DNA from: Alphaproteobacteria bacterium
GTDB taxonomy: Bacteria; Pseudomonadota; Alphaproteobacteria; CAAGCB01; CAG-977
Assembly: GCA_017480385.1 (NCBI GenBank)
Contig: JAFVAT010000006.1
Coordinates: forward strand, 1 to 49,492
DNA length: 49,492 nucleotides
Direction of reading: 5' to 3'
Shown here: positions 40,492 to 49,348 of the stretch, in pieces
Numbering within the stretch: the stretch's first letter is position 1
Layout: each line of letters starts with the position of its first letter
Position numbers and translations under genes: made by a program
Notes under the pieces: model-generated
Database searches by the model: none
What the model saw: only the letters and a program-made list of their open reading frames with translations
What the model was told of the DNA's origin: nothing

Positions 40492-40520
40492 TTGCGAAAA
40501 ACAAAGAACTAAAGTAGAAC
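40492..40520 (+). promoter_or_regulatory. lexA promoter with overlapping LexA box
   Basis: TTGCGA (40492-40497), a 17-base spacer, and TAGAAC (40515-40520). The perfect alphaproteobacterial LexA box GAACTAAAGTAGAAC (GAAC-N7-GAAC, 40506-40520) covers the -10 element, so LexA would repress itself. A third, imperfect half-site (GAAA at 40528-40531) follows at the same spacing. Confidence 0.8.
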
Positions 40521-40550: not shown

Positions 40551-41246
40551 ATGCTGACCAAAAGACAATATCAGCTGCTGATGCTGATTGAAAAAAAATT
40601 ACGTGAAGACGGCGTTTCCCCTTCTTTTGAAGAAATGAAAGAAGCCATCGGATTGAAATCGAAATCAGGGATTCATCGTTTGATTTCGGGGCTGGAGGAA
40701 CGTGGTTTTATTCGTCGGCTGCCAAATCGGGCCAGAGCTTTGGAGATCCTGCGTCTGCCAGATAATCAGGAGGAAAAACAAAATACGGTTCTTTCGGCAA
40801 GAAGTCTTGTGAATCAGCAAACGACTCGGTCTTTTTCCAGATTGAGCGAAAATTTGATCGCTAATTCTGTTGAACTGCCTCGTTACGGCAAAATTGCAGC
40901 CGGGACACCGATTGAAGCGCTGCGCAGTAATGAAATGGTGTCCGTTCCTGCAAATATGATTGGAAACGGGGAGCATTATGCTTTGACTGTTGCCGGCGAT
41001 TCTATGGTTGAGGCAGGCATTTTGGACGGAGACACGGTGATTATTCAACGCACAAGCACAGTTGAAAACGGAGAAATTGCGGTGGCTTTGGTGGACGGCT
41101 GCGAAGTGACGCTGAAAAAGATCCGTCGTAAAGGAAATTCGATTATACTGGAACCGTGCAACAAGAATTATGAAGCGCGGATATACAGTCCCGAACGGAT
41201 TACGGTACAGGGAAAATTGATTGGTTTAATGCGCAGTTACGGATAA
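40551..41246 (+). CDS. lexA: SOS repressor LexA
   Basis: 231 residues. The N-terminal winged helix (LTKRQYQLLMLIEKKL...KSKSGIHRLISGLEERGFI) binds DNA; the C-terminal S24 domain has the self-cleavage site Ala117-Gly118 and the Ser151/Lys189 dyad (AGDSMVEAG and EVTLKK). RecA filaments trigger self-cleavage after DNA damage. GGAGG lies 4 bases before the ATG. The extended linker between the domains is usual for alphaproteobacteria. The tRNA-Glu/integrative element begins about 70 bases downstream. Confidence 0.98.
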   Translation: MLTKRQYQLLMLIEKKLREDGVSPSFEEMKEAIGLKSKSGIHRLISGLEERGFIRRLPNRARALEILRLPDNQEEKQNTVLSARSLVNQQTTRSFSRLSENLIANSVELPRYGKIAAGTPIEALRSNEMVSVPANMIGNGEHYALTVAGDSMVEAGILDGDTVIIQRTSTVENGEIAVALVDGCEVTLKKIRRKGNSIILEPCNKNYEARIYSPERITVQGKLIGLMRSYG

Positions 41247-41317: not shown

Positions 41318-41393
41318 GTTCCCATCGTCTAGAGGCCTAGGACATCGCCCTTTCACGGCGGTAACGGGGGTTCGAATCCCCCTGGGAACGCCA
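41318..41393 (+). tRNA. tRNA-Glu (TTC)
   Basis: A full cloverleaf of 76 bases. The acceptor arm GTTCCCA pairs with TGGGAAC, the anticodon loop CTTTCAC gives TTC, the T arm is GGGGGTTCGAATCCCCC, and GCCA ends the gene with encoded CCA. Its 3' 44 bases form the left attachment site of the integrative element. Confidence 0.97.
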
Positions 41394-41396
41394 AAA
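41350..41396 (+). repeat. Attachment site copy 1 (in tRNA-Glu)
   Basis: A 47-base sequence from the anticodon loop to just past CCA, repeated exactly at 49302-49348. The bases next to it differ at both ends, which sets the limits of the direct repeat. Confidence 0.93.
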
Positions 41397-41423: not shown

Positions 41424-41697
41424 ATTTTGCCTGCTTCCGAAAATCCCCGCCGTGTCTGCGTTATGTCTGCATTGTGTAACGAAAAAAAAGTCACCGACTC
41501 CGGCAGGCTGTTAGAGCCGTTTTCTTCGGTCGGGTTCTCCGAATCTGCATTTTCAGATATGCTGTTTAAACGCATTTTAAAGCCCGTATATGCGCTTTGA
41601 TTGTTTCAGGTAGGGTGTAATAGGAAAAATGCCTAACGCTTATTTCTGCAACAAAAGAATAAGGATTTTTAGCAAAAGAAACGGTGCTTCGGTGGCG
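41424..41697. other. Left end of the element, no gene supported
   Basis: Contains the tandem TGTCTGC motifs (41453-41473) matched at the right end. A 45-residue open frame starting at 41464 has no ribosome binding site and overlaps these motifs, so I do not call it. Confidence 0.6.
41453..41473. promoter_or_regulatory. Candidate integrase arm sites, left
   Basis: TGTCTGCGTT (41453-41462) and TGTCTGCATT (41464-41473), 11 bases apart. The same pair, with the same spacing and orientation, occurs near the right end (49175-49195). Confidence 0.6.
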
Positions 41698-42288
41698 TCA
41701 TACAAACTTGATCTCGATTACCCGCGGAATATCCTTCCCGCTCCCGTCGGTCTGCGCTACCTTGTCAACGGGCTTTTCTCCTATCGTGTCGCGGATTACT
41801 TCAAAGGCCCTTACGTTACCGGAAAGGGCTTTGTTGATTAAAGCAACGGCAACTGATTCCGCCGTGTCCCCTGTTTCCAGCAATAAAAGCAACCGTTCTT
41901 TAAGGGCCTTTCTTTCCCGTCTGGCTTCACCCGATTTTTTACCGCCGTTTTTACCTCGTCTCTTTGCTTCGCTCTTGGTTAAACCGCCTTTTTGAATAGG
42001 CTTCAGATTCCCGTTATTCATTTTTGCCCCCTGTTTTTTTCCATTATACGGATTTTTCCCCTGAAACGCCACCGAAAGAAAACGGCGGGGATTATCCCGC
42101 CGCTTCCTTTTGCTCTTTTCCTGTTTTTCTTCTCCGGTGTTTATCAATTCGCCGATAAGAGCTACCCTTAAATCGCTTTCCGCTATTTCTTCAGGCGTAA
42201 AAGTTCCTTTCTGGCGTCTTTCCAAGTTCTGCCGACTGTACTTTTCATTTTGAGCCGTCCGTTTAAACAATGTCTTCAAGATCGACAT
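41698..42288 (-). CDS. KGG-motif protein, terminase-small-subunit-like tail
   Basis: 196 residues if started at 42288, which overlaps the antitoxin gene by 26 bases. The C-terminal 107 residues begin at an internal ATG (42021) with GGGGGC upstream and contain KSEAKRRGKNGGKKSGEARRERKAL, then ALINKALSGNVRAFEVIRDTIGEKPVDKV. The latter resembles phage proteins adjoining terminase genes. The N-terminal 89 residues are highly charged and could be a separate or non-translated part. Likely DNA-binding; role in packaging only a guess. Confidence 0.55.
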   Translation of the reverse strand: MSILKTLFKRTAQNEKYSRQNLERRQKGTFTPEEIAESDLRVALIGELINTGEEKQEKSKRKRRDNPRRFLSVAFQGKNPYNGKKQGAKMNNGNLKPIQKGGLTKSEAKRRGKNGGKKSGEARRERKALKERLLLLLETGDTAESVAVALINKALSGNVRAFEVIRDTIGEKPVDKVAQTDGSGKDIPRVIEIKFV

Positions 42289-42631
42289 TTAACGCTTTCG
42301 CAATCGCTTTAAGGCTTTTCAGACTCCCGTCTGATTTCCCGCTTTCGATTTTTTTTATCATATCAACGGACAAGCCCGCCTCGGCGGCAAGTTCCGCCTG
42401 CGTCTTTTTCCGGTATTCCCGATAAACCTTTACGGGACTTTCGCCGTCAAGAATAGCGTCAACAACAGAGGCGGGCATATATTCCCCTTCGCCCCGTGCT
42501 ATCCGTTCTTCTATCGCCTTTGCGTCCGCCGCGTCCTGCGCGTCTTCTATCGCTTCAATCAGTTTTTCATAAATGGCAAGTGGGATAATGGCGAATTTTT
42601 CCCCTTTGATTGTCAAAACTTCCGCATTCAT
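42263..42631 (-). CDS. XRE-type antitoxin of the RelE pair
   Basis: 122 residues. The N-terminal part (EVLTIKGEKFAIIPLAIYEKLIEAIED) is Phd/YefM-like. The C-terminal part is a Cro/C1 HTH (TQAELAAEAGLSVDMIKKIESGKSDGSLKSLKAIAKAL). ATG at 42631 has GGGGAG 8 bases upstream and lies 4 bases after the toxin stop. It should neutralise the RelE toxin and repress the operon through the repeats at 42931-42996. Confidence 0.82.
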   Translation of the reverse strand: MNAEVLTIKGEKFAIIPLAIYEKLIEAIEDAQDAADAKAIEERIARGEGEYMPASVVDAILDGESPVKVYREYRKKTQAELAAEAGLSVDMIKKIESGKSDGSLKSLKAIAKALNVDLEDIV

Positions 42632-42635
42632 TGCT

Positions 42636-42893
42636 TTAAACTCCCCTGTAAACGTCCCCGCGCTTTCCGATTTTTTCAATCTTCATAATCGCGCCCGTTT
42701 CGTTAAAGATAACTCTATAATCTCCAACCCGTAACCGATAGTAAGGTAAGCCCTGCAATTTCTTAATCTGGTTCTTCAGGCTGTCCGGTGATTCCGCGTA
42801 TTGCTCTATCTTCGCCCGTATTCTGTCCGCGTCCGCCTTGTTCGCTTTTCTTAAAAACTGGCGTGCCTGTGCGCTGTATCGTATTTCAAACAT
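42636..42893 (-). CDS. RelE/ParE-family toxin
   Basis: 85 residues. FEIRYSAQARQFLRKANKADADRIRAKIEQ and YYRLRVGDYRVIFNETGAIMKIEKIGKRGDVY show the full RelE fold with the Arg-rich RVGDYRVIF strand. RelE toxins cleave mRNA on the ribosome, ParE poisons gyrase; the RVIF/YR-type end favours RelE. ATG at 42893 follows AAGG; the longer TTG frame would run through the promoter. Toxin-first order with an HTH antitoxin is HigBA-like. Confidence 0.87.
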   Translation of the reverse strand: MFEIRYSAQARQFLRKANKADADRIRAKIEQYAESPDSLKNQIKKLQGLPYYRLRVGDYRVIFNETGAIMKIEKIGKRGDVYRGV

Positions 42894-42918
42894 TGCCGCC
42901 TTGCCCTTTCTGTCTTTT

Positions 42919-42947
42919 ATTTTAGGAATTAAATTATCCCTTGTCAA
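42919..42947 (-). promoter_or_regulatory. Promoter of the toxin-antitoxin operon
   Basis: On the minus strand TTGACA (42947-42942), 17 bases, TAAAAT (42924-42919): nearly consensus sigma-70. It lies 25 bases before the toxin ATG and is overlapped by the first 21-bp repeat. Confidence 0.75.
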
Positions 42948-43116: not shown

Positions 43117-43206
43117 TATCAAAAATTGGTAGGGTTCGGGGGGTAAAGGTATCAAAAATTGGTACCTTTTTCTGTTTTTAAAGGTATCAAAAATTGGTAG
43201 GGTTCG
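43117..43206. repeat. Three iteron-like direct repeats (possible replication origin)
   Basis: TATCAAAAATTGGTA occurs at 43117-43131, 43150-43164 and 43185-43199; the first and third share 22 bases (ending GGGTTCG). The middle copy is also part of AAAGGTATC...GGTACCTTT, a palindrome. An AT-rich TATATATCTATATGTATATC stretch adjoins. The repeats lie just past the 3' end of a replication-type HTH gene. Confidence 0.7.
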
Positions 43207-43209
43207 CCC

Positions 43210-43773
43210 TTATAAAAGCCCCTGTTTCCGTTTCCAATTTTCAAGAGATTGTAAAAGCTCGTTTGTGTGTGAATCCGCGCTGGCGTTCTGTATAACGGGG
43301 GCGGGCGCGTTGTCGTTCGCTTCGGTCGGTCGTTTCTTGTCGCCGTCGTTTTTATCGCCGCTTTTCGTTTTCAGTAAAGCAATCAGTTCCGCGTCCTTTG
43401 CGTTGTTCGGGTATTGCTTCCAGTCGTCAGTTCTGGCGTGTCCGTTCCGGTCGTCTCTCCGAAAAGTCAAGAGCCATTCAGAAACGTTCCCTCTGTAAAC
43501 GCCCTCTTTTGTCCGTTTGATAAAGCCTTTGTTCCAAAGGTCAACAATAGCGCATTTTGTTGTATTTACTGTAAAACCAAAAGCCGCTCCGTCAGAGTAT
43601 CCGAAAGGAATCGTTCCGTTGTTCGTTCCGGTGTATCGGGTAAGAATACAGACTAAAAGCCCTTTTGCGCTTCCGGTCAGTTCCGCAAAAGCGCGGCTTT
43701 GGATCAGGTTAAACGGCAGGGCAATAAACTTTCCGCCTATTCTTTCCTTGTTTGATCGTTTTCCCCGTGACAT
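43210..43773 (-). CDS. Winged-helix protein of replication-initiator type
   Basis: 187 residues. IALPFNLIQSRAFAELTGSAKGLLVCILTRYTGTNNG and FTVNTTKCAIVDLWNKGFIKRTKEG match the helix-turn-helix proteins of alphaproteobacterial plasmids, phages and islands, in which a short initiator-like wHTH domain is followed by a variable tail. The C-terminal part is low-complexity (DKNDGDKKRPTEANDNAPA). The iteron-like repeats next to its 3' end support a role in replication or copy control of the excised element. AAGG precedes the ATG. Confidence 0.6.
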   Translation of the reverse strand: MSRGKRSNKERIGGKFIALPFNLIQSRAFAELTGSAKGLLVCILTRYTGTNNGTIPFGYSDGAAFGFTVNTTKCAIVDLWNKGFIKRTKEGVYRGNVSEWLLTFRRDDRNGHARTDDWKQYPNNAKDAELIALLKTKSGDKNDGDKKRPTEANDNAPAPVIQNASADSHTNELLQSLENWKRKQGLL

Positions 43774-45741: not shown

Positions 45742-45782
45742 AAAAAAAAGCGTTACACCGTGTCAGTACACCGTGTAACGCC
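45742..45782 (-). terminator. Terminator after the coiled-coil gene
   Basis: GCGTTACAC...GTGTAACGC gives a 9-bp stem extended inside by GTGT/ACAC, followed on the minus strand by eight T residues. It also contains the 10-bp TACACCGTGT twice as a direct repeat. It separates the int-rhuM side from the AlpA side. Confidence 0.88.
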
Positions 45783-49174: not shown

Positions 49175-49195
49175 TGTCTGCGCTGTGTCTGCATT
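49175..49195. promoter_or_regulatory. Candidate integrase arm sites, right
   Basis: TGTCTGCGCT (49175-49184) and TGTCTGCATT (49186-49195), same orientation and 11-base period as the pair at 41453-41473. They lie between the LexA-type box and the int start codon. Confidence 0.6.
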
Positions 49196-49197
49196 AC

Positions 49198-49212
49198 GTT
49201 CTAAAACCGTTC
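49198..49212 (-). promoter_or_regulatory. LexA-type box upstream of int
   Basis: GTTCTAAAACCGTTC on plus, GAACGGTTTTAGAAC on minus: a perfect GAAC-N7-GAAC, 42 bases before the int ATG. Its second half is TAGAAC, as in the lexA promoter. No convincing -35 is placed correctly upstream, so the promoter itself is not defined. Confidence 0.6.
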
Positions 49213-49267
49213 TGGTCTTCAATAAACGTCAATAGACTGAATATAATAAAAACAATAACTTAAAGTG

Positions 49268-49292
49268 TCTATAAAAGTCTATAAAAATCTAT
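49268..49292. repeat. 10-bp tandem repeat beside the right attachment site
   Basis: TCTATAAAAG, TCTATAAAAA and a partial TCTAT follow one another with a 10-base period, ending 10 bases before the core repeat. They may bind an excision factor or bend DNA. Confidence 0.55.
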
Positions 49293-49301
49293 GATACGAC
49301 T

Positions 49302-49348
49302 CTTTCACGGCGGTAACGGGGGTTCGAATCCCCCTGGGAACGCCAAAA
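49302..49348 (+). repeat. Attachment site copy 2 (partial tRNA-Glu)
   Basis: An exact 47-base copy of 41350-41396, carrying only the 3' part of tRNA-Glu. It is not a functional tRNA. Confidence 0.93.

Follow-up and report, generated by a model that had tools for sequence, protein, structure and literature searches.

Does the direct repeat GAAC-N7-GAAC in front of the integrase gene int of a small integrated element bind LexA, the product of the adjacent lexA gene, or does it belong to the site-specific recombination system of the element itself? The question arises in the window, by which we mean the whole analysed stretch of 49,492 nucleotides of an alphaproteobacterial genome. The earlier note had described this repeat as a LexA box in the int promoter region. 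The features that bear on the question are collected in Table 1.

The element and its neighbourhood

Approximately 8 kb of the window are bracketed by the tRNA-Glu gene and a 46-bp exact copy of the tRNA 3' end. The empty site is observed in a relative (G003), where tRNA-Glu runs straight into sequence resembling the right flank of the window. The element contains int, a RhuM-family gene, an AlpA-like HTH gene, a gene for a DnaD/O-like replication protein, further unknown genes and, at the left end (42263-42947), genes for a RelE/ParE-like toxin and its HTH partner. The lexA gene belongs to the host and is not carried by the element, because it lies beside tRNA-Glu on the host chromosome of relatives without the element. 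It is single-copy in 12/12 genomes of the family. Of the 11 lexA loci scanned, 10 adjoin a tRNA-Glu gene, and the remaining one starts at a contig end.

No relaxase or transfer genes were recognised among the scanned ORFs of the element, a scan that small or divergent genes could escape, and no virion genes were recognised in the element. Since genes of both kinds were not recognised, the element is satellite-like rather than an ICE. Phage-inducible chromosomal islands (PICI) and P4-like satellites are similar in size and likewise have an integrase, AlpA-like and replication-initiator-like proteins and a specific att site, the AlpA-like and replication proteins being candidates here, assigned by weak matches. 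The differences are that no helper phage, packaging or interference is known for the element, and that its replication protein resembles initiators of the DnaD/O type.

A sister element was found in the same genus (G006:C42, also CALXTY010000042.1, L033), in the same tRNA-Glu gene beside lexA. Its int is 88% identical, and most element genes are common to both. No further sisters were found by order-level and G027-centred searches, nor by a class-wide search with another element protein.

Two other repeats were observed within the element. Three copies of TATCAAAAATTGGTA at 43117-43206, with spacings of 33 and 35 bp, adjoin the end of the DnaD/O-like gene (43210-43773); they are iteron-like and may form a replication origin. 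The inverted repeat GCGTTACAC...GTGTAACGC, followed by a T run, lies ahead of the AlpA-like gene on the minus strand (approximately 45749-45781).

Table 1. Features of the lexA/tRNA-Glu/int region, in coordinates of the window
Feature	Position	Strand	Remarks
lexA operator GAACTAAAGTAGAAC	40506..40520	+	host, outside the element; 30 nt before the lexA ATG
Host lexA gene	40551..41246	+	Pfam LexA_DNA_bind and Peptidase_S24
tRNA-Glu gene, integration site	41318..41393	+	ARAGORN
att copy within tRNA-Glu, left end	41351..41396	+	46-bp exact repeat
Matching GCAGACAC-type repeat pair, left end	41453..41470	-	without GAAC box
AlpA/HTH_17-like protein, candidate directionality factor, first 74 residues	45438..45659	-	62% identical to the 78-aa protein of the sister
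Tyrosine integrase gene (int), 418 aa	47900..49156	-	Pfam Phage_integrase, E 4.8e-28
GCAGACAC direct-repeat pair, arm-type-like	49175..49192	-	11-bp period; between box and int
GAAC-N7-GAAC repeat GAACGGTTTTAGAAC	49198..49212	-	GAACG direct repeat, 11-bp period
GTCTATTGACGTTTATTG	49220..49237	-	10-bp-period repeat; inverted relative to 49268-49292
Promoter-like TAGACA-N17-TATTAT before int	49243..49271	-	prediction only
ATAGA(C) repeats, three copies	49268..49292	-	10-bp period; close to the att core at the right end
att copy, right end	49303..49348	+	46-bp exact repeat

The repeat upstream of int

The start of int was set at ATG 49156. This codon is conserved in the sister, whose int ORF starts at the corresponding ATG after an in-frame stop; in relatives, too, the N-terminal sequence is kept. 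The start preferred by the ORF caller, TTG 49222, was rejected, as the sister and the relatives support ATG 49156. The repeat lies on the minus strand where the earlier note had placed it, with 41 nt separating it from the ATG, so that it spans positions -56 to -42. Short units (AGAACG, GAACA) recur with an 11-bp period, which is one helical turn. These GAACR units sit between the arm-like GCAGACAC pair on one side and the core-side repeats and att core on the other. They were considered as further copies of the GCAGACAC arm sites and rejected as such, since the two kinds of unit are not alike and no GAAC units occur in the left arm.

The sister contains GAACAGTTTAGGAAC at exactly this distance from its int ATG (-56 to -42). 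In the ungapped alignment of the upstream regions the half-sites are identical at 8/8 positions and the box interior at 4/7, compared with 55/89 (62%) for the sequence from the core to the box and 19/20 for the GCAGACAC pair. At a background identity of 0.63, the probability of eight conserved positions is 0.025. Conservation in sister elements had been proposed as a check, and the box is indeed kept, half-sites and 7-bp spacing alike, in the single sister found. The basis is thin (n=1), but since the half-sites are retained amid 62% identity, the repeat is probably functional. The sister box starts directly downstream of its best promoter-like match, TTGAAA-N17-TATAGT, with which the promoter-like sequence of the window is not co-located.

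The number of such motifs in the window by itself means nothing. Three perfect GAAC-N7-GAAC sites are observed where 1.64 are expected, and three are reached in 23 of 100 shuffles. The 2.03-Mb genome has 66 perfect sites, nearly all of them within long ORFs, and the only clear non-coding ones are at lexA, at int and at one further locus, with ORFs around all 66 called by a simple longest-first rule. Two candidates for promoter matches (L018 and L028) were rejected, as the sites fall within a coding sequence or right at its end. A perfect box would arise by chance in the 150 nt ahead of int with a probability of 0.0024 at the composition of the window and 0.0065 at that of the sister.

The further non-coding site, GAACGTAAAAAGAAC (L002:1501-1515), scores 14.1 bits with the matrix described below and is a fairly good fit to the extended host LexA form. 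There is no clear gene closely downstream of it.

The comparison was extended to 10 integrase relatives in the class and approximately 36 upstream regions from IMG/VR. No perfect GAAC-N7-GAAC box was found near int in these approximately 45 more distant relatives. The upstream regions of L201 and L202, identical as printed, have a perfect GTTC-N7-GTTC at -139, which we read as a chance match. Many relatives (L075-L083, L184-L222) contain a repeat pair with an 11-bp period at most about 50 nt from the start codon, each with a sequence of its own, and 10-bp-period repeats also occur in several relatives. The pair before int is likely a conserved autoregulation or arm-site layout. Among other phage-type integrases of the family, one of approximately 40 upstream regions has a perfect GAAC-N7-GAAC (L170, before int of G003:C4), and this box belongs to a longer arm-like repeat, GGAACCCCGGTGGAACCCCG. 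The case shows how an arm-like repeat can by itself spell GAAC-N7-GAAC and so mimic a LexA site. A scan of viral contigs for the box together with the arm repeat gave two matches, roughly the number expected by chance, neither of which looked like an int promoter, and no relative of the window integrase was found in a phage collection at E 1e-20.

Comparison with the host LexA operator

The published LexA motif of Alphaproteobacteria, GTTC-N7-GTTC, is the same direct repeat as GAAC-N7-GAAC (PMC3323433; PMC12700426). In the family considered here, the sites at lexA, recA and a UmuC/DinB-type polymerase gene have the extended form GAAC-[A/T]AA[A/C]-N3-RAAC. Positions 5-8, defined from these three promoters, are almost always [A/T]AA[A/C] across host sites, which are known by sequence only. 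The lexA promoter carries its own box, as the earlier note had claimed: of 11 lexA promoters examined in the family, 10 contain GAACTAAAGTAGAAC and the eleventh differs by one base. The second half of this box coincides with the predicted -10 in TTGCGA-N17-TAGAAC. Upstream of the -35 of recA, the near-consensus GTTY-N7-GTTC was found in 11 genomes (L047-L055, L057, L058). The UmuC/DinB-type gene is directly preceded by GAAC-N7-RAAC in 9/9 loci, eight of them perfect (L267-L272, L264-L266); the gene was not found in the genome of the window. There is no perfect box within 260 nt upstream of uvrA, which hence does not help to define the regulon. A more distant genome (G010) carries GAACATTTAGAGAAC, so departure from the interior is possible. 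The recA promoters of the family also contain a second, inverted GTTC...GAAC arrangement across the promoter.

The int boxes of both elements have all eight half-site bases, but neither contains GAAC-[A/T]AA[A/C], positions 5-8 being GGTT in the window and AGTT in the sister. With a matrix of 17 host sites, including those of the UmuC/DinB type, the two boxes score 2.4 and 5.9 bits, compared with 13.7-21 bits for the scored host sites, and fall at the 20th and 47th percentiles of random interiors with perfect half-sites. The lexA and recA matrix that this one superseded also ranks them low. The fit to the alphaproteobacterial direct-repeat box therefore holds for the GAAC tetramers and their spacing and fails for the interior of the extended host form. 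The TAGAAC second half is shared by int and lexA in the window, but the sister has AGGAAC, and at lexA there is a promoter reason for TAGAAC, namely the predicted -10. What stands of the proposed LexA box in the int promoter is a real repeat kept in the sister, with an interior that does not match the host operator.

Candidate roles of the repeat

Three readings were weighed, the weights being judgements and not computed posteriors. We give a probability of roughly 0.45 to the repeat being bound by a recombination protein of the element, either its AlpA-like protein or Int. An AlpA/Xis-like directionality factor (RDF), or Int, would bind the two GAACR units one helical turn apart in the attachment arm on the int side, where they have the arm-like repeats on one side and the att core on the other. 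Binding would repress int and at the same time give the DNA a shape suited to excision, as is known from P4 and KplE1. We infer both which protein binds and its effect on int. Excisionase sites usually take the form of direct repeats beside att that recur once per helical turn.

Several observations point to such a recombination site. Firstly, the half-sites are kept in the sister at a level well above that of the sequence between the core and the box. Secondly, the units are short, have an 11-bp period and lie between the arm-like pair and the core. Thirdly, both elements have the AlpA-like gene, and the box interior is unlike that of host LexA sites. Finally, there are precedents: the L170 repeat, and RDF sites, short direct repeats one helix turn apart, that overlap the int promoters of P4 and KplE1 (PMC7498355). 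Autoregulation has been proposed as possible for most tRNA-associated integrase genes (PMC2951348). The sites of P4 Vis, KplE1 TorI and phage 186 Apl are likewise short direct repeats with a 10-11-bp period beside att and before int, and these systems also combine an element-encoded small HTH protein with a tRNA-associated integrase.

There are differences as well. The sites described here are putative, and the AlpA-like assignment is weak (phrog E 1e-4, HTH_17 below the cut-off), the 78-aa protein of the sister giving weak matches to HTH_17 and excisionase profiles. The GAAC units number only two, fewer than in many RDF arrays, and the RDF sites could instead be the ATAGAC repeats. No GAAC repeat occurs in the left arm or in the distant relatives. 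Further, if the repeat belongs to recombination, its exact GAAC-N7-GAAC form would match the alphaproteobacterial LexA consensus by coincidence. By our estimate, chance places GAAC or GTTC in roughly one of 11 helical-turn repeats, which is fairly often.

It is less probable that the repeat is a weak, non-canonical operator through which host LexA would directly repress the int of a satellite-like element. DNA damage would then act through RecA and LexA self-cleavage to derepress int, which with the directionality factor would lead to excision, and the element would be mobilised with neither a helper phage nor a SOS repressor of its own. Both elements have the tetramers and spacing of the published motif exactly and at the same position, host lexA and umuC/dinB-type genes bear sites of this type, and the sister box begins just past a promoter-like sequence. 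However, both int boxes differ from the family sites at lexA, recA and the umuC/dinB-type gene in having no A-rich interior and in their low scores, the TAGAAC likeness to lexA is lost in the sister, and the approximately 45 more distant relatives have no perfect box near int. The one box among approximately 40 other phage-type integrases of the family is part of a longer repeat. We prefer the recombination site to the LexA operator because RDF or Int sites are expected at such a position, phage-type integrases are more rarely under the direct control of LexA, and the box interior argues against LexA.

Least probable is coincidence, a chance GAAC-N7-GAAC kept through a short divergence time or by its promoter location: the perfect genome matches are almost all coding, the window count is not above chance, the interiors score like random ones, the carriers are two elements only and any of dozens of promoters could have been picked for the first observation, but the probability is low both for a box arising in the 150 nt ahead of int (0.0024-0.0065) and for neutral retention of its eight bases (approximately 0.025).

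The arrangement of a tyrosine recombinase gene behind a putative LexA site is shared with LexA-controlled integron integrases (intI; PMC3108266). The element is not an integron, however, and the intI sites are E. coli-like and experimentally validated, whereas the int box is known from sequence alone. If LexA does bind here, integrases under direct SOS control would be found not only in integrons but also in a tRNA-site satellite-like element of Alphaproteobacteria. For the present, the result is chiefly a caution: the alphaproteobacterial LexA operator, a direct repeat with an 11-bp period, can be imitated by ordinary excisionase or integrase repeats. Since recombination repeats share this period, a match to the LexA consensus in front of an integrase gene counts for little until it has been compared with the extended operator of the host.
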